Source: a virus. From it: a stretch of 25,273 bases of DNA. Location: positions 1-25,273 of the IMG/VR virus record IMGVR_UViG_3300030388_000434; one strand, given 5' to 3'. Numbering within the stretch: position 1 is the stretch's first letter; every line of letters starts with the position of its first letter. The translations under genes were made by a program, and so were the position numbers. Below are positions 1,733-10,400 of the stretch, in pieces. The notes beneath the pieces are model-generated. The model was not told the DNA's origin. It saw only the letters and a list, made by a program, of their open reading frames with translations, and did not search any database.

Positions 1733-3337
1733 ATGGAGTTTAATTTACCAAGTCAGATTGTCAAAGATTTGAATTTCGGCGAAAATGCACGAAATAAAAT
1801 AATGTCCGGTGTCTATAAGTTATCAGACGCAGTGAAGTCAACATTAGGAGCTTCTGGAAAATGCGTTATATACGAAGACGGGATGGGCAGACCGGTGATT
1901 ACAAAAGACGGAGTAACCGTTGCAGAAAGCGTAGTCTTAATCGATCCGGTCGAGAATATAGGAGCTACCTTAATAAAGGAAGCTGCTAGTAATACAGTGA
2001 GGGAAGCAGGAGACGGTACCACGACGGCTATCGTTCTTGCTCATTCATTATTAAACAAACTAAACGAATACGAAGGTGAAGAAAAGATTAGAGACATTAA
2101 AGAAAGCATTTCAGAATGCGCTAAAGAAATTGTGGTTTATCTTAACGAAACCAGTACAGAGGTGGAAGGTGATATGCTGCAACAAGTGGCTTATATTAGC
2201 TGTAACAACGACAAAGATCTTGGAGAAAAGATTGGCGAAGCATATCAAAAAGTTGGAAGAAATGGAGTTGTTCTAATGGAAGACTCCCCTACTAATGAAA
2301 CTTATGTTGAATTTGTAGAAGGAACACAATTTTCATCAGCAATAAAATCACAGCATTTATTAACTGATAAAGAAAAAGGTACTGCGGTGTTAGATAATCC
2401 TTACGTTTTAATAGTAAGTTCTACAATACCCAATGTACGAAGAATACAAAATATATTAGAGCATGTAGTAAAGAGTAAACGTTCTTTATTAATAGTAGCT
2501 CCAATGGATCAGCAACCGTATGCTACATTATTAGCAAACAAAGTTAAAGGAAATATAAAAGTCAATATAGTTGATTTGCCAGGTTTTGGCCCAACTAAAG
2601 AAGATGCTATTCAAGATCTAGCTATATTAACCGGTGCTACAGTTGTTAACGAGGAGTTAGGGGATGATTTAGATTTAATTAGTCCTGATGCATTAGGAGA
2701 GGTTATAAAGTCTGTTACAGACGCTAAAAACACTACATTACAAATTAATGAAATTACTGAAGAAATATCAGAAAGAATTAAAGATGTAGAAAAGAAAATT
2801 GAAAAAGAGCAAAACTCTTGGATTAAAACAAAACTACAAGAAAGACTATCAATGCTTACAGGTAAGGTTGGTGTTTTATTTATAGGTGCTAATTCAGCCG
2901 TAGAGTTAAAAGAAAAAAAAGATAGAGTGGATGATGCTCTTCATGCGACAAAAGCTGCTTTAGCTGAAGGTATCGTGCCAGGCGGAGGCGTTGCTTTATT
3001 GAATGCTGCTCAAACAATAGAAGTAAAAGATGATGGATATCGTATATTATTAGAAGCTATACAAGCTCCTTACTATACAATATTAGATAATGCAGGATAT
3101 CACGATTTAGAAAATCCTAAAGAACATCTTGAAAATAATAAAGAAATAACAGACAGAGAATGGCAAGGAGTTGGAATTGATGCAACTTGTGGATGTTATA
3201 AGCATATGTTAACAGCTGGTATTATAGATCCAATATTAGTTACAAAATCTGCATTAAAAAATGCAATTAGTGTAGCTACAACTATAATTTCAACTGATTG
3301 TATAATCTCAAATGTAAGATCTCTTGAAAGCAATTAA
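1733..3337 (+). CDS. groEL: Phage-encoded chaperonin GroEL (Cpn60)
   Basis: A full-length group I chaperonin of 534 residues (E. coli GroEL has 548). ATP-site elements are intact: T-K-D-G with D59, G-D-G-T-T-T with D94 (GroEL D87), the catalytic D401 (GroEL D398) in D-D-A-L-H-A-T, then G-G-G-V-A-L, and I-I-D-P near the end. The apical P-G-F-G is kept. Several residues that bind substrate and GroES differ in a by-eye alignment: Y199, Y203 and F204 become I, H and L, and L234 becomes Q. The four positions altered in the single-ring mutant SR1 (R452, E461, S463, V464) are Y448, H457, L459 and E460 here. There is no Gly-Gly-Met tail. The gene overlaps a GroES-like gene, and its first 300 bases have distinct codon use. 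It probably folds phage proteins. Identity is near certain; single-ring behaviour is inferred. Confidence 0.97.
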   Translation: MEFNLPSQIVKDLNFGENARNKIMSGVYKLSDAVKSTLGASGKCVIYEDGMGRPVITKDGVTVAESVVLIDPVENIGATLIKEAASNTVREAGDGTTTAIVLAHSLLNKLNEYEGEEKIRDIKESISECAKEIVVYLNETSTEVEGDMLQQVAYISCNNDKDLGEKIGEAYQKVGRNGVVLMEDSPTNETYVEFVEGTQFSSAIKSQHLLTDKEKGTAVLDNPYVLIVSSTIPNVRRIQNILEHVVKSKRSLLIVAPMDQQPYATLLANKVKGNIKVNIVDLPGFGPTKEDAIQDLAILTGATVVNEELGDDLDLISPDALGEVIKSVTDAKNTTLQINEITEEISERIKDVEKKIEKEQNSWIKTKLQERLSMLTGKVGVLFIGANSAVELKEKKDRVDDALHATKAALAEGIVPGGGVALLNAAQTIEVKDDGYRILLEAIQAPYYTILDNAGYHDLENPKEHLENNKEITDREWQGVGIDATCGCYKHMLTAGIIDPILVTKSALKNAISVATTIISTDCIISNVRSLESN

Positions 3338-4020: not shown

Positions 4021-4485
4021 ATGGCATTTAAAATGAAACCAAAGTTCCACGCCTTAGCAGAATCGCCTAGGTACGCGCAACAAGAAAGACAAGATTTAGG
4101 CAAGTATAACGTTATAGACGATATCGCAGGCAAATCTCCAGCTAAAAAAGTACCAGGTCCTGGACCAGTATCAAGCCCGGCTAAACAGGTTAATAGAGAC
4201 GACGGTGTACAAGTAGATGAAGTACCTGCGGTTGTAGGTGAAGAGGTTAAAAAAGCAGCTAAGTTTGTTAAGAAGAAAGGAAAAAGAATAGGCAAGTGGT
4301 TTAAAAAACAAATTAAAAAAGTTGGTGATGTTACTTTAACAAAAACTAAAAAAGAAAAAATTGAAAAGCAAAAGAAAAAGCTTAAAGATTTAGAAGCTCC
4401 AACTAAACAAACATCTAAACAAAGAAAAAATTTACCAGACGCAATAGTTAAAGCTATTGAAAAGAAAAAAAATAAAACAAAATAA
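4021..4485 (+). CDS. Basic SPAK-motif protein, N-terminal Met-Ala-Phe-Lys
   Basis: This is an unrecognised 154-residue protein that begins M-A-F-K-M-K, a start shared in near-identical form with the genes at 4767 and 6489. It carries S-P-A-K twice (residues 39-42 and 52-55) and a related E-S-P-R at 14-17. From residue 78 on it is very Lys-rich and predicted helical (repeats of K-K and E-K), with no membrane segment or signal peptide. It begins two bases after the previous stop and is followed within two bases by the next gene. The basic character suggests contact with DNA or another acidic partner inside the virion, but that is inference. A reverse ORF opposite this gene is only its hydrophobic shadow. 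Confidence 0.7.
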   Translation: MAFKMKPKFHALAESPRYAQQERQDLGKYNVIDDIAGKSPAKKVPGPGPVSSPAKQVNRDDGVQVDEVPAVVGEEVKKAAKFVKKKGKRIGKWFKKQIKKVGDVTLTKTKKEKIEKQKKKLKDLEAPTKQTSKQRKNLPDAIVKAIEKKKNKTK

Positions 4486-4486
4486 A

Positions 4487-4765
4487 ATGGCAAACAACGG
4501 AAAAGGTATTGGACCAAACAAATTAGGGGCAAGTAAGCAAGGTAATATGGGAGCAGGATCTGTTCACGCTTGGGATGTGTCTGACAATTCAAGTAAAAAG
4601 AATCAAAGAGATAACTTCGCTTCTAAAGACGGGCTAAATAGTCCAGCAAAAAAGAATGGTATGAAATACGATATCAAAGAAGCTAGTGATCAAAATCTTA
4701 CTGCAAGCGCTAGAAAGCATTTCGCTGAAAACGCTCAACACGATTCTAAAAAAGGATATAGATAA
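4487..4765 (+). CDS. Small polar SPAK-motif protein
   Basis: This is a 92-residue hydrophilic protein with no recognised family. An upstream in-frame ATG at 4457 exists, but the ATG at 4487 is preferred because it begins one base after the previous stop, follows an A-rich leader, and gives a Met-Ala start like its neighbours. The N-terminal half is rich in Gly, Asn, Ser and Lys and probably disordered. N-S-P-A-K-K lies at residues 51-56, then a short charged helical segment (A-S-A-R-K-H-F-A-E-N-A). It is part of a tight run of S-P-x-K motif genes. A structural or virion-internal role is possible but not shown. Confidence 0.65.
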   Translation: MANNGKGIGPNKLGASKQGNMGAGSVHAWDVSDNSSKKNQRDNFASKDGLNSPAKKNGMKYDIKEASDQNLTASARKHFAENAQHDSKKGYR

Positions 4766-4766
4766 T

Positions 4767-5120
4767 ATGGCTTTTAAGCTTAGACCGCATTCTGATATAT
4801 TTGGAATACACGAAAAGACTTCCCAGTTTGGAACTCCCGTTATTCTAAAAGATGATTTAGAAGAAGGTATTGAGGCTGAAGCTAATAGAGATGGCACAAT
4901 ATTTGTTGACAGTAAATTGTCTGATAAAAAAATAGAAGATGCTGTTAGTCACGAAAAAGTTCATTTAGATCAATTAGCTCAAGGTAGATTACAGTATTCA
5001 GAAGATTCTGTAACTTGGAAAAGAGACACTAAAAGCCCTGCTAGAGTATACAAAAGAGCTACAATGAATGAAGGTCATCCGGATTTTGAGTGGGAAGACG
5101 AAGCATATAAACAATCATAA
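4767..5120 (+). CDS. Small HExxH zinc-metalloprotease-like protein with SPAR motif
   Basis: This is a 117-residue protein beginning M-A-F-K-L-R, starting at ATG 4767 just after the previous stop (an earlier in-frame ATG at 4686 lies inside the upstream gene and is disfavoured). Residues 62-66 are H-E-K-V-H, the HExxH signature of zinc metallopeptidases; it follows an alternating segment (T-I-F-V-D-S) and a helix (I-E-D-A-V-S), as is usual before that motif. A possible third zinc ligand is a Glu in E-W-E-D-E-A-Y (108-114), the gluzincin-like arrangement. Between them is K-S-P-A-R (89-93), placing it in the same motif family as its neighbours. It might process phage structural proteins, or might be an inactive scaffold fold. 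Catalysis is inferred. Confidence 0.6.
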   Translation: MAFKLRPHSDIFGIHEKTSQFGTPVILKDDLEEGIEAEANRDGTIFVDSKLSDKKIEDAVSHEKVHLDQLAQGRLQYSEDSVTWKRDTKSPARVYKRATMNEGHPDFEWEDEAYKQS

Positions 5121-5122
5121 CT

Positions 5123-5527
5123 ATGGCAATAACATTTAGAGGTAGAGCAAGCGAGCTTAATGAAAAAGTATCAAAGCAAAACGCTAGCGGCTTTCAAGAA
5201 AAATCAGATCCAGGACCAAGACAAGGTGTAGGAGGAAGTAACTCATTGAGTAATGCTCAAGCTTCTTTTGATAAAAGAAATGCGCCAACTCCATTAAAAA
5301 AGAAAAACTTTTATGGAGGTTCAGCTTATTTCCAAGATGGATACGGAGGTGACTTAGCTAATCCTATAACTCAAAAATCAAGATCTCCTTTAAAAATTAA
5401 TAATACATTAGTTAGCGGGGCAGGTCAAGCAGCATCAAGGTTTGTAGACGCGGGAGCTGAAGCAGGTAAAGCAGGAGAAAGACTTTACCCACAAATCGAA
5501 AAAGACAAAACTAAAACTAACAAATAA
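5123..5527 (+). CDS. Basic Gly/Ser-rich SPLK-motif protein
   Basis: This 134-residue protein is unrecognised. It starts M-A-I-T-F-R-G-R, a variant of the Met-Ala-Phe-Lys start of its neighbours. It carries T-P-L-K-K at residues 56-60 and S-P-L-K at 88-91, then a small Ala/Gly-rich helical stretch (about 98-118) and a Lys-rich end. The middle (F-Y-G-G-S-A-Y-F) is aromatic and Gly-rich. Low-complexity composition suggests much disorder. It begins two bases after the HExxH gene and ends five bases before the next, so it is in the same transcript. A virion-associated role is a guess. Confidence 0.65.
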   Translation: MAITFRGRASELNEKVSKQNASGFQEKSDPGPRQGVGGSNSLSNAQASFDKRNAPTPLKKKNFYGGSAYFQDGYGGDLANPITQKSRSPLKINNTLVSGAGQAASRFVDAGAEAGKAGERLYPQIEKDKTKTNK

Positions 5528-5532
5528 TTACA

Positions 5533-6489
5533 ATGGGAACAAAAGGAAGTAAAAACACACCGATAACAGCAAGAGTAAATGCTGGTCTCTTTAATCAAAA
5601 AGGAGGTATAACAGAACCTTTATTAAACGTTGGTCCCGCGGGAGTTTACGGAAATGCAGAAACTAGAGATATACCTTCTCCTAGCAAGCAGAAAAAAGGC
5701 TATTCAATGGCTAAAAAAAAAGTCCCTTCCCCCGCTAAACAACAAGTAGGTGTTAATGTATTAGAATCCAGTTCAACAGGAGACAAAATTATTAAAGGTA
5801 AAAAAATAACTAAAAAGGTAGAAGGCGATAAGCCCACCTCAATAGTAAAACCGGGAGATCCTGGATATGATAAATGGTTAGCGGCTGTAACAAAAGATCC
5901 TAGTATAGAGGATAGATTTAAAGATAGAGAAGTTGAGACTGGTGAAAGCGAACCTGACACAGTAATACCGGGTAAAACTACTGAATCAAATCAATTTACT
6001 CCTACTTTGACTAATGATAAGAATGACGCTATGTCACCTTGGAGAGTTAGACAGCAAAGCAGATCAATTAAAAAATCCGGTAAAGATGTTCGCCAATCTC
6101 AAAATAAGTTGGATAAGACTAATAGGAGACTAGCTAAGATGGACAAAGAAGACAAGGTGGTTGGTAACAGAAAGTATGACAGGCTAATGTCTAAGTTTAA
6201 TGAAAACACTACAGAGCTAGAGGCGTTTAAGAAAAACATGACCGCAAGAACTAGACAAACTGAAATGAGTTCTGATCCTTTAGGCAAAACGGGTACATTT
6301 AATTCAAAGGATAGAAATATGACTTTAAATGATGCTAGTACAACTTATGATGGTCAAAAAGCTATTATCGAAGCAGGAGGTGTTGAGTCTAAGTCTGATC
6401 CTAATATGTTTAAGCAGTTCCTTGGAAAAGATTTCGGAAGTGGTATATTCAAAAAGAAAGCTCCTTTAAAAAAATCATACTATAAATAA
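5533..6489 (+). CDS. Large basic SPSK/SPAK-motif protein
   Basis: This 318-residue protein is the longest of the S-P-x-K group. P-S-P-S-K-Q is at 48-53 and P-S-P-A-K-Q at 65-70. The last residues are again a Lys-flanked A-P-L-K-K (311 onward). The middle (about 170-250) is charged and predicted helical, with many Arg, Lys, Asp and Asn, possibly coiled-coil. Its stop overlaps the ATG of the next gene (T-A-A-T-G). I recognise no enzymatic motif. The paired S-P-x-K at the N-terminus and basic C-terminal tail make it a candidate virion-internal or DNA-associated protein, which is inference only. Confidence 0.65.
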   Translation: MGTKGSKNTPITARVNAGLFNQKGGITEPLLNVGPAGVYGNAETRDIPSPSKQKKGYSMAKKKVPSPAKQQVGVNVLESSSTGDKIIKGKKITKKVEGDKPTSIVKPGDPGYDKWLAAVTKDPSIEDRFKDREVETGESEPDTVIPGKTTESNQFTPTLTNDKNDAMSPWRVRQQSRSIKKSGKDVRQSQNKLDKTNRRLAKMDKEDKVVGNRKYDRLMSKFNENTTELEAFKKNMTARTRQTEMSSDPLGKTGTFNSKDRNMTLNDASTTYDGQKAIIEAGGVESKSDPNMFKQFLGKDFGSGIFKKKAPLKKSYYK

Positions 6490-6743
6490 TGGCATTTAAA
6501 ATGAGAGGCTCCTGCTTAACGAGCCCAGCTAAAAGGACTAAGGCTTATACTGCAGGTATGAGTGCGGCTGAAAGAAAAACATATAATAATAAAACTGGAG
6601 GTAATCTAAAAGCACCTCAACCAGGTGGAGGCTCAAGAAAGAAATCTTATTGTGCTAGATCTGCAGGTATTAAAAAATGTAAAGATCCAGATAAAAATGG
6701 CGATTGTCCAAACGACATAGCTAGAAGAAATTGGAAATGTTAA
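6489..6743 (+). CDS. Small Cys-containing SPAK-motif protein (DUF6321-like)
   Basis: This 84-residue protein starts M-A-F-K-M-R, with 16 bases from the ATG identical to the start of the gene at 4021. S-P-A-K is at 12-15. The C-terminal half has a K-K-S-Y-C-A-R-S segment, then K-K-C-K-D, G-D-C-P-N-D and a closing W-K-C, giving four Cys after residue 50 and a fifth near residue 9. The S-Y-C-A-R-S and terminal R-R-N-W-K-C pattern resembles short phage proteins I know as the DUF6321 type. A zinc-binding knuckle is plausible. Its end overlaps the next small gene by 7 bases. Confidence 0.65.
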   Translation: MAFKMRGSCLTSPAKRTKAYTAGMSAAERKTYNNKTGGNLKAPQPGGGSRKKSYCARSAGIKKCKDPDKNGDCPNDIARRNWKC

Positions 6744-6898: not shown

Positions 6899-7171
6899 AT
6901 GAGTAAAGTAAAAACATTAGACGTGGATCACAAAGAAGTAAAATCAATTTCTGAAAAAGAATTAGCATTGTTGCAGGAAACTGTAAGCAAGCAAAACAAA
7001 ATTCAAATGCAAATCGGTGGATTAGAAGGCCACAAAGCTACTATGCTTGATCAATTAAAAGTAATAGTTTCGGATTTAACAGAAATACAAAAAGGACTAG
7101 AAGAGGTCTATGGAGCCGTTAACATCGATCTAACTTCAGGAGAAATTAGCGATGCCCCAGCAAGTAATTAG
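6899..7171 (+). CDS. Small helical coiled-coil protein
   Basis: A 90-residue, mostly helical protein with no recognised catalytic motif. The Glu/Lys/Gln-rich region from about residue 15 to 70 (S-E-K-E-L-A-L-L-Q-E, later L-T-E-I-Q-K-G-L-E-E) has spaced hydrophobic residues suggesting a coiled coil, and the C-terminus is acidic (L-T-S-G-E-I-S-D). Small helical proteins of this kind just upstream of packaging genes are common in marine phages. The next gene overlaps its 3' end by 20 bases. Function is unknown. Confidence 0.6.
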   Translation: MSKVKTLDVDHKEVKSISEKELALLQETVSKQNKIQMQIGGLEGHKATMLDQLKVIVSDLTEIQKGLEEVYGAVNIDLTSGEISDAPASN

Positions 7172-7376: not shown

Positions 7377-7970
7377 ATGCACAGCGTATTTAATTATTTA
7401 GTTGAACCGAAGGGTAGTAGGACAACTGGGAAAAAAGAAATAGACGGACAAGAGTTATTATTAAATACTGACTTACAAAATCACGAGTACACTAATAGAC
7501 AAGGTGTAGTGTTAAGTTTACCATTAGTTAATAAATACAGAGAAATAAAGCAAGGTGACGAAGTTATTGTTCATCACAATATATTTAGACGTTTTAGAGA
7601 CATAAAAGGTAAAGAAAAAAATAGTAAGAACTATTTAAGTGAAGATGTGTATTTGGTTCAGCCTGATCAAGTATATGCTTATAAAAGAAATAATGAATGG
7701 AAAGCTTTAGAAGGTTTTGTATTTGTTATGCCAATTAAAGAAACAAAATTGTTTTCTGTAGATTTTGAAAGACCACTAATAGGTATTGTTAAATACTCAA
7801 ATGGTGAATTTAAAAAGAATCAACTTATTGGTTTCAGGCCAAATTCAGAATATGAATTTATAATAGACGGGCAAAGGTTATACCGAGTTCCCACCAATTC
7901 AATTACAATCAAATATGAATATCAAGGAAACGAAGAAGAGTATAATCCAGGCTGGGCACAAAGCAGTTGA
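7377..7970 (+). CDS. Putative two-domain GroES-like (Cpn10-fold) protein
   Basis: This 197-residue protein reads as two copies of the GroES pattern. Copy A (about 8-103) has G-V-V-L-S-L-P, then I-K-Q-G-D-E-V-I-V-H-H, a linker, and D-V-Y-L-V-Q-P-D-Q-V-Y-A-Y at its end. Copy B (about 111-181) has I-G-I-V-K-Y-S, then F-K-K-N-Q-L-I-G-F and L-Y-R-V-P-T-N-S-I-T-I-K-Y. Each matches the order G-x-V, G-D-x-V, and closing strand seen in GroES and in the protein at 3324. Neither copy has an evident G-G-(hydrophobic) mobile loop, so GroEL docking is uncertain. It could be a second co-chaperonin, a fold-only virion protein, or a scaffold for capsid assembly. The fold is a by-eye call. Confidence 0.5.
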   Translation: MHSVFNYLVEPKGSRTTGKKEIDGQELLLNTDLQNHEYTNRQGVVLSLPLVNKYREIKQGDEVIVHHNIFRRFRDIKGKEKNSKNYLSEDVYLVQPDQVYAYKRNNEWKALEGFVFVMPIKETKLFSVDFERPLIGIVKYSNGEFKKNQLIGFRPNSEYEFIIDGQRLYRVPTNSITIKYEYQGNEEEYNPGWAQSS

Positions 7971-8190
7971 AGAACTTATTAAGGTCGCTAAAGAAGCTAT
8001 TGTGGATTCAGACGATGATATTTCGGCTGATAGACTTAAGAATGCTGCTGCTACCAAAAAGCTAGCAATTTTTGATGCTTTTGAAATACTTAACCGCATT
8101 GAGGAAGAAGAAAGAATATTAGATAATAAACCTAAGAAAGAAATTGAAACAACTTCTTTTGGCGGGTTTGCTGAAAACAGATCCAAGTAA
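7915..8190 (+). CDS. Putative terminase small subunit
   Basis: A 91-residue, charged, mostly helical protein lying directly upstream of the large terminase, with its stop overlapping the terminase ATG (T-A-A-T-G). Helical segments are I-I-Q-A-G-H-K-A-V-E-E-L (about 10-21) and A-A-A-T-K-K-L-A-I-F-D-A-F-E-I-L (about 44-59), typical of small terminase subunits, which bind DNA and start packaging. The 5' end overlaps the preceding gene by 56 bases in a different frame. A later start would cut away the first helix, so ATG 7915 is preferred. The call rests mainly on position and size; no characteristic motif is visible. Confidence 0.45.
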   Translation: MNIKETKKSIIQAGHKAVEELIKVAKEAIVDSDDDISADRLKNAAATKKLAIFDAFEILNRIEEEERILDNKPKKEIETTSFGGFAENRSK

Positions 8191-10400
8191 TGTACGATCA
8201 AACTCTATACTCAGTTATAGAACCTATAAAGCGTACTACTATTGCTAGGATGAATAAAGGTAAAAAATGGGAATATGGTTATAACAAAGAGCATGATGTT
8301 GTTGTTATAAGTAAAACCGGTCAGATTGGTGATATATATAAGATACAAAATCTTAATATAGCCTTACCAAAAGCACCTGGAAAAATAAGTACAATTAACG
8401 ATAAATGGACTCCGGAAGAATATCCAAAACAATTAAAAGGTATTAAAAGTATCTTTGATTGGAGGGATTATCCAGAGGGATTTAAAAACACTTGGGGTAA
8501 CTATATTGATGAAAACTTTAACAAAAGAGAAAACGGTTACTGGTTCAATAATCAGGGCATGGATACTTACATTACTGGTACTCACTTTATGTACTTGCAG
8601 TGGTCCAAGATTGATGTTGGGAAACCAGATTTTAGAGAATCAAATAGATTATTCTATATATTCTGGGAAGCTTGCAAAGCAGATAGAAGATGCTACGGTA
8701 TGTGCTATCTTAAAAACAGACGTTCAGGATTCTCATTTATGGCTTCAGGAGAAACGGTTAATATGGCCACTATATCAAGTGACTCAAGATTTGGTATATT
8801 ATCCAAGTCTGGTTCTGATGCAAAAAAAATGTTTACCGATAAAGTTGTACCCATCAGTGTTAACTTCCCATTCTTCTTTAAACCTATACAAGACGGTATG
8901 GACAGGCCAAAAACAGAACTTGCCTACCGAGTACCCGCTTCTAAATTTACACGTAGAAGACTTGATAGTAACAAAGCCACAGAAACACTTGCTGGCTTGG
9001 ACACAACAATCGATTGGAAAAACACAGGTGACAATGCCTATGATGGTGAAAAATTAAAACTTCTTGTTCATGATGAGAGTGGAAAATGGGAAAGACCAAA
9101 TAACATTCTTAACAATTGGAGAGTTACAAAAACAACATTAAGGTTAGGGTCTAGGATTATTGGAAAGTGTATGATGGGATCAACATCAAATGCTTTAGAC
9201 AAAGGAGGAGACAATTTTAAAAAACTATATAATAGTTCAGATGTTACAAAAAGAAACGCCAACGGACAGACTCGTTCAGGACTCTATTCTTTGTTCATTC
9301 CTATGGAATGGAACTACGAAGGATTCATTGATTCTTATGGGCTACCTGTCTTCAATAAACCAAATGAGGGCACTACAGGTCCTCAAGGCGACGAAATAGA
9401 TGTAGGTGTAATAGAACATTGGAATAATGAAGTTGATGGCTTAAAGGGTGATCAAGATGCTTTAAACGAATTTTACAGACAATTTCCAAGAACTGAAGAG
9501 CATGCGTTTAGGGATGAAACAAAAAATAGTATATTTAACTTAGCAAAAATATACGAACAAATAGATTATAACGAAGACTTAGGTAATAGTAACGTTTTAA
9601 CAAGAGGTAGTTTTCAATGGGAAAAAGGAATTAAAGACTCTAAAGTAGAGTTTAGTCCAAATCCCAATGGAAGGTTTCTAATAAGCTGGACACCTAATTA
9701 TAATATACAGAATAGACAAGTAATAAAAGGAGGCGTTAGATGGCCCGGTAATGAGCATATGGGTGCTTTTGGTTGTGATAGTTATGATATATCAGGAACA
9801 ACAGACGGAAGAGGATCCAAGGGAGCTTTGCATGGGTTAACTAAATTCAGTATGGAAGACGCGCCGCCTAGCACATTTTTTTTAGAATATGTTGCAAGAC
9901 CACAGACAGCAGAAATGTTTTTTGAAGACGTACTTATGGCTTGTGTGTTTTACGGAATGCCTTTATTATGTGAAAACAATAAGCCTAGACTTTTATATTA
10001 TTTTAAAAGAAGAGGGTATAGGGGTTATTCAATGAATAGGCCTGATAAATTGTGGAATAAATTATCTGTTACAGAAAGAGAAATCGGTGGTATACCTAAC
10101 TCAAGTGAAGATATAAAGCAAGCTCACGCTGCTGCAATTGAAATGTATATAGATAAACACGTAGGCTTATCACCTGAAGGCGAATATGGAACCATGTATT
10201 TTAATGAAACATTAAGCGACTGGTCCAAGTTCGATATAAACAATAGAACGAAATTTGATGCAGCAATTAGCTCGGGATTAGCTATCATGGCCTGTCATAA
10301 AGATTTATATAGACCATCAAACAAAATGCAAAGAGCACCAGTTAGTTTAAGATTTGCGAAATACCAAATCGAAGGATCAAGTTCAAAAATAATAAAATAG
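8190..10400 (+). CDS. terL: Terminase large subunit (packaging ATPase and nuclease)
   Basis: 736 residues, at the upper size range for large terminases but consistent with crAss-like and marine phage forms. Walker-A-like region: Y-L-K-N-R-R-S-G-F-S at about 173-182. Walker B: K-L-L-V-H-D-E-S with D295 and E296. Nuclease domain: G-C-D-S-Y-D with D530 as first acidic ligand, then G-S-K-G-A. The acidic residue of K-F-D-A-A near the C-terminus is D690. It drives DNA into the procapsid via the portal encoded next (a 4-base gap). The Walker A departs from the usual G-x-x-x-x-G-K-[TS], so the ATPase role rests on context and Walker B. Identity is confident. Confidence 0.9.
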   Translation: MYDQTLYSVIEPIKRTTIARMNKGKKWEYGYNKEHDVVVISKTGQIGDIYKIQNLNIALPKAPGKISTINDKWTPEEYPKQLKGIKSIFDWRDYPEGFKNTWGNYIDENFNKRENGYWFNNQGMDTYITGTHFMYLQWSKIDVGKPDFRESNRLFYIFWEACKADRRCYGMCYLKNRRSGFSFMASGETVNMATISSDSRFGILSKSGSDAKKMFTDKVVPISVNFPFFFKPIQDGMDRPKTELAYRVPASKFTRRRLDSNKATETLAGLDTTIDWKNTGDNAYDGEKLKLLVHDESGKWERPNNILNNWRVTKTTLRLGSRIIGKCMMGSTSNALDKGGDNFKKLYNSSDVTKRNANGQTRSGLYSLFIPMEWNYEGFIDSYGLPVFNKPNEGTTGPQGDEIDVGVIEHWNNEVDGLKGDQDALNEFYRQFPRTEEHAFRDETKNSIFNLAKIYEQIDYNEDLGNSNVLTRGSFQWEKGIKDSKVEFSPNPNGRFLISWTPNYNIQNRQVIKGGVRWPGNEHMGAFGCDSYDISGTTDGRGSKGALHGLTKFSMEDAPPSTFFLEYVARPQTAEMFFEDVLMACVFYGMPLLCENNKPRLLYYFKRRGYRGYSMNRPDKLWNKLSVTEREIGGIPNSSEDIKQAHAAAIEMYIDKHVGLSPEGEYGTMYFNETLSDWSKFDINNRTKFDAAISSGLAIMACHKDLYRPSNKMQRAPVSLRFAKYQIEGSSSKIIK

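Follow-up and report, generated by a model that had tools for sequence, protein, structure and literature searches.

An S-P-[A/F/L/M]-K motif recurs on small late proteins of one phage clade and may be a docking tag for head assembly

Results

A four-residue motif in six consecutive late genes

Many small late proteins of one clade of phages carry a four-residue motif, S-P-[A/F/L/M]-K, that is specific at each position, selected at the protein level, confined to the clade, and present or absent between orthologues. It appears to be a short linear motif on many unrelated proteins that are mostly basic and disordered. We suggest that it is a docking motif read by a common partner in head assembly, for loading into the virion, and we give this reading a probability of about 0.45.

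The window is the whole stretch of DNA that was analysed, a viral record of 25,273 bases (IMG/VR IMGVR_UViG_3300030388_000434). For its terminase, portal, major capsid protein (MCP) and tail genes, the matching families are those for head and packaging in flavobacterial podovirus-like phages. The six tagged genes (4021-6743) are flanked on one side by a phage-encoded GroEL gene and on the other by a GroES-like gene, which is followed by the terminase gene TerL. The features are as follows.

1733-3337: GroEL, phage-encoded (Pfam, 188 bits)
4021..4485, + strand: tagged protein A (ORF), 154 aa, Lys-rich, MAFKM start, two SPAK
4135..4146, + strand: SPAK, protein A residues 39-42
4174..4185, + strand: SPAK, protein A residues 52-55
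4487..4765, + strand: tagged protein B, 92 aa
4640..4651, + strand: SPAK, protein B residues 52-55
4767..5120, + strand: protein C, 117 aa, MAFKL start, probable SprT/IrrE-like mini-zincin (alignment, AlphaFold2, Foldseek viral matches)
5034..5045, + strand: SPAR, protein C residues 90-93, in a six-residue loop insertion
5123..5527, + strand: tagged protein D, 134 aa
5288..5299, + strand: TPLK, protein D residues 56-59, a weak variant
5384..5395, + strand: SPLK, protein D residues 88-91
5533..6489, + strand: tagged protein E, 318 aa; among homologues a conserved N-terminal island, a variable middle and a conserved C-terminus
5677..5688, + strand: SPSK, protein E residues 49-52 (SPSK or SPAK in 10/10 homologues)
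5728..5739, + strand: SPAK, protein E residues 66-69 (SPFK, SPLK or SPAK in 10/10 homologues)
6460..6471, + strand: APLK, protein E residues 310-313, a third, C-terminal site (9/10 homologue rows)
6489..6743, + strand: tagged protein F, 84 aa, MAFKM start, DUF6321 domain (PF19846, 42.2 bits)
6522..6533, + strand: SPAK, protein F residues 12-15
6899..7171, + strand: 90-aa Lys/Glu-rich protein without the tag, a candidate partner
7377-7970: GroES-like protein (PHROG 13932)
8190-10400: TerL

An earlier note on this DNA had listed motifs in these six genes and a MAFK start in three of them. Every listed motif was found at its residues, and the MAFK starts are those of genes 4021, 4767 and 6489. 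Gene 4487 starts at the ATG at 4487 and not at the TTG upstream of it. Some of the listed sites needed qualification. The site in gene 4767 has the form SPAR, and arginine shows no overall enrichment in position 4, but the position is genuine because orthologues show SPAK, SPMK or SPSR there. TPLK (gene 5123) and SPSK (gene 5533) are present but belong to weakly enriched classes; the SPSK column is nevertheless kept in 10/10 rows, and the counterpart of TPLK is SPFK or SPAK in loci L249 and L256. The two sites given for gene 5533 stand, while the third, APLK, had been overlooked. SPWR at residue 168 of protein E is probably a chance match.

The motif is enriched position by position

In the six proteins SP[AL][KR] occurs 7 times, against 0.08 expected from per-protein shuffles, and SPAK 5 times, against 0.04 expected (P<=5e-5 for both), while the other 18 window proteins have no SP[AL][KR]. 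The earlier note had proposed such a count against shuffled proteins for this genome and its relatives, and in both the motif is present far above expectation. For the relatives we assembled about 250 loci. The protein queries were TerL, DUF6321, zincin C and E, and the DNA pattern MAFKMK..SPxK was used as well; the set also took in pieces of 11 long genomes. The sequence is mostly metagenomic and the ORFs were called mechanically. A de novo search for enriched tripeptides in all ORFs under strict redundancy removal gave mostly noise, and position-by-position tests on unique sequence contexts were used instead, in 3,184 proteins no longer than 450 aa. Ratios, not P values, are given for these counts because the contexts are not phylogenetically independent.

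The consensus, S-P-[A/F/L/M]-K, was found in 338 distinct contexts against 23.5 expected. When position 1 was swapped the enrichment fell to 1.7x for TP (28 vs 16.7 expected), 0.9x for AP and 0.6x for NP; swaps of position 2 gave 1.0x for SA and 0.8x for SS, and SP[AFLM] followed by any residue other than K gave 1.2x. In position 3, serine is weakly enriched (13 vs 8.9 expected) and basic residues are depleted in SP[KR]K (7 vs 17.6 expected, 0.4x), with SP[KR]R at 5 vs 6.3. The residues favoured next are Q, K, M or I in position 5 and N, K or T in position 6. All six Ser codons and all four Pro codons are used at the motif, and the Ala codons are diverse too; therefore selection acts on the protein, and a DNA or RNA element does not account for the motif.

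Among 523 motifs, 112 are no more than 25 aa from the N-terminus and 65 no more than 25 aa from the C-terminus, and one protein may have up to 6. The tag is set in an N-terminal extension, in a loop insertion or in a conserved island within disordered sequence. Tagged proteins are basic (K+R 21% vs 13% in untagged proteins). The start M-[AGSP]-[FY]-[KNQ], found in 33% of tagged but 2.7% of untagged small proteins, is a second shared feature which could reflect ancestry or initiation context. We claim no number of independent tagged families, since BLAST clustering with the motif masked put the Lys-rich proteins together in a single large cluster.

The tag is confined to one clade

The first 16 records checked all encode the terminase type of the window (74-90% identity), and four of these came solely via the MAFKMK..SPxK pattern. 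Among the sequences examined, phages with this terminase type are the only ones that bear the tag above chance. These are podovirus-like marine phages, probably with Bacteroidota hosts, as deduced from related cultured phages. In the 11 long clade genomes there are 46 genes with a strict SP[AFLM]K against 7.0 expected in sum; two of these genomes have one strict-tag gene each, which is about chance. The tagged genes form two late clusters, one in the interval from GroEL to GroES and TerL, while the other follows the gene of a giant late protein and adjoins holin-like and endolysin genes.

Seven outgroup stretches (elemovirus, Callevirus, Pachyviridae, Maribacter phage Panino and a spring metagenome phage), which cover the genomes in part, have 0-1 SP[AFLM]K each, the level of chance. 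The Elemovirus, Pervagoviridae (Callevirus) and Pachyviridae phages of Flavobacteriia have related head genes, among them those for terminase, portal and MCP, but their stretches have no tag above chance, and neither zincin C nor the 6899-type protein was found in them. Among DUF6321 proteins of the clade, 26/52 are tagged by the strict definition and 43/52 by the broad one, against 0/9 outside the clade. The nine outsiders came from 14 records of the DUF6321 search without a detectable TerL of the window type; they are mostly close to each other and some records are fragments, so that Fisher values for this contrast are overstated. No tag was found in the cyanophage and pelagiphage DUF6321 proteins examined. 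The idea of a shared signal on otherwise unrelated proteins, also put forward in the earlier note, is thus well supported by the position-specific enrichment, by presence and absence among orthologues and by the restriction to one clade.

Two peculiarities of the records were seen. In one locus (L274, G006:C1:114-2329) TerL lies in three overlapping frames, owing to frameshifts or sequencing error. Contigs with a window-type TerL (L306, L313, L314, L318 and L321) had been binned in metagenome-assembled genomes of archaea, Aliivibrio, Maricaulis and also Bacteroidota, and they are probably mis-binned free phage.

Gain and loss of the tag between orthologues

The tag is an add-on that some orthologues have and others lack, as seen for the mini-zincin, the DUF6321 protein, a relative of phi38:1 gp080 and an inner-virion-like protein. 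In the alignment of the zincin C family, six residues are inserted in the tagged members relative to untagged homologues. In most genomes no extension precedes the inner-virion-like protein (GGIIGSGKRKREQR...DTSN), while in three it has a tagged N-terminal extension (MAQGLYKKSPLK, MSNSPAK and MAYKKSPAK). Since the members in most genomes are untagged, the tag is not required for this class. The protein is syntenic with phi38:1 gp099, which is annotated as structural; the case for homology is based on synteny, as the sequence similarity is not significant (E=0.016), and no PHROG family was found for these proteins. In L109 and L136, members of the family homologous to phi38:1 gp080, a "structural protein" by its GenBank note, carry a tagged extension at the N-terminus. 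Neighbouring genes also share modules such as GPQGLG and PITARV.

In protein E, the three tag columns are kept in 10/10, 10/10 and 9/10 rows, where the mean column conservation is 0.48, and the tag sites evolve more slowly than their flanks. The third site, APLK in the window, is SPMK, TPLK or GPMK in homologues.

Proteins C and F and the 6899 protein

Protein C is probably an SprT/IrrE-like mini-zincin and a protease. It has HEKVH at residues 62-66, an HExxH motif, and in the alignment E63, H66 and E110 are invariant and H62 is conserved in at least 90%. In the AlphaFold2 model (pLDDT 78) a helix at residues 53-72 carries the HExxH, and with E110 the protein has the HExxH on a helix and the third acidic ligand of zincin metallopeptidases. 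The loop insertion with SPAR falls between two predicted strands. Foldseek against viral predictions gave SprT-like proteins (E about 5e-4). Against PDB folds the best match, abylysin (E=0.26), is not confident, and DUF6782 in Pfam, at 14.1 bits, is under the cutoff of 27. No sequence relative of protein C or F was found in the PDB.

The genes for zincin C and the 6899-type protein are each present in 11/11 long clade genomes and in 0/7 outgroup stretches, and neither had a match in 50,697 phage records (by tblastn for zincin C). Among the cultured phages searched, proteins C and E, the DUF5872 protein and the 6899 protein had no relatives. Because they are the clade's own genes, in every long clade genome and in no outgroup, zincin C and the 6899 protein are the first candidates for the partner.

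Protein F matches DUF6321 at 42.2 bits, above the Pfam gathering cutoff of 28.5. Its residues 1-21, the tag region, have pLDDT <50 and are probably disordered, as far as the model tells. Cyanophage gp114 (PHROG 727; e.g. P-SSM2 gp114), whose gene adjoins the terminase genes gp16/gp17, is a single chain of CW, KDACY and DUF6321 modules. The tagged clade shares these modules, but there they are separate small proteins, many of them tagged, and the fused chain has no SP[AFLM]K. The tag may replace the covalent link of gp114, gathering the modules in one place. In two loci (L260:4656-5471 and L265:3077-4195) gp114 is such a mosaic, while the same modules are single small proteins in other marine phages. 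Nothing usable was found on gp114 as a virion protein. By eye the N-terminus of gp114 looked DUF5872-like, which a comparison did not confirm.

The earlier note had stated that no function was described, and our search of the literature and of PHROGs agrees for the families involved: none for DUF6321 in the literature searched, a mere listing for DUF5872 and no function named in PHROGs.

Discussion

The hydrophobic residue and the lysine of the tag would dock the proteins onto one common partner during head assembly, and the tagged proteins would be co-loaded into or onto the virion. We infer that they belong to the virion, that a single partner serves them all and that the tag exists for loading. 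No tagged phage with a virion proteome was found. Of the three proposals in the earlier note (a procapsid docking tag, a processing site, a minor-groove binder), the first fits the sequence data best. Speaking against docking are the varying place of the tag (N-terminal, internal or C-terminal) and the inner-virion-like protein, which is mostly untagged.

According to the main rival explanation, the phage's own mini-zincin recognises or cuts the motif, and tagged precursors are trimmed in head maturation; this is the main rival because one of the clade-specific candidates is a probable protease. The confinement of the zincin to the clade and its occurrence throughout it fit this explanation as well as they fit docking. 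Moreover, the zincin has a conserved HExxH and third acidic residue and a fold resembling SprT/IrrE-like phage proteins, its gene lies inside the tagged cluster, and an exposed Pro-hydrophobic-Lys would be a plausible protease site. A maturation site usually marks one pro-peptide boundary, whereas here there are up to six motifs per protein, some of them within the fold of the zincin itself. Furthermore, the motifs of protein E are conserved along with their flanks, and no site lies in the window's portal, scaffold-like or major capsid protein. We regard recognition or cleavage by the zincin as the unlikely but serious alternative, and targeting by the tag and its later removal may also be combined, as in T4. 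Rather improbable is a functionless relic, left by duplication and module shuffling among paralogues with a MAFK...SPxK N-terminus, although the shared start and modules such as GPQGLG and PITARV common to neighbours speak for it: in protein E all four positions are exactly conserved against divergent flanks, and this, together with the internal and C-terminal sites and the loop insertion of the zincin, points to selection.

Very improbable is that the motif binds DNA and that the Lys-rich tagged proteins coat or condense the genome like SPKK-rich histone tails. SPK(K/R) motifs are described in the tails of sperm-specific histone H2B (PMC9903204), and both motifs have Ser-Pro and then Lys, in basic disordered proteins. 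However, the histone motif is basic in positions 3 and 4, whereas position 3 of the tag is A, F, L or M, and the basic residue that defines SPKK is depleted there; therefore the tag is not the histone SPKK motif, and the minor-groove proposal is not supported. The motif also occurs in a folded enzyme (zincin C) and on the inner-virion-like protein.

For the docking reading, the capsid targeting sequence (CTS) of the internal proteins of T4 is the closest functional comparison. The T4 CTS is N-terminal, longer than the tag and cut off by the gp21 protease. The tag has four residues, may be internal or C-terminal and can recur within a protein, and the head genes belong to a different type; we propose a functional likeness, without claiming homology (PMC3012670). 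The signal is not N-terminal in every tagged protein, as 112 of the 523 motifs are near the N-terminus, while the tagged proteins do form a diverse set that shares the signal alone. As for a counterpart to the prohead protease, the mini-zincin is universal in the long genomes of the clade. Among Bacteroidota phages, crassvirus phicrAss001 carries much protein in its capsid and tail, with one cargo protein bound to the portal, but its cargo proteins are far larger than the tagged proteins and no cargo tag was described (PMC10172136).

Among tailed phages, cargo-loading signals have been worked out in detail for few systems. Tentatively, the tag could be an undescribed four-residue assembly code by which any late protein that bears it is brought into the virion. 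The recruiter would be a clade-specific partner, either a head protein, the 6899-type protein or the mini-zincin, and the phage could exchange its cargo freely, while in cyanophages several of these modules stay fused in gp114. The tag marks families that are otherwise unannotated (DUF6321, DUF5872, KDACY and CW modules, the mini-zincin) and gives a testable context to DUF6321, which occurs in cyanophages too, and to DUF5872, which occurs in an algal virus (PMC12085832). If the docking reading is true, the virion cargo of uncultured marine phages could be predicted by a rule read from sequence, and foreign proteins could be loaded into phage heads with a short tag.
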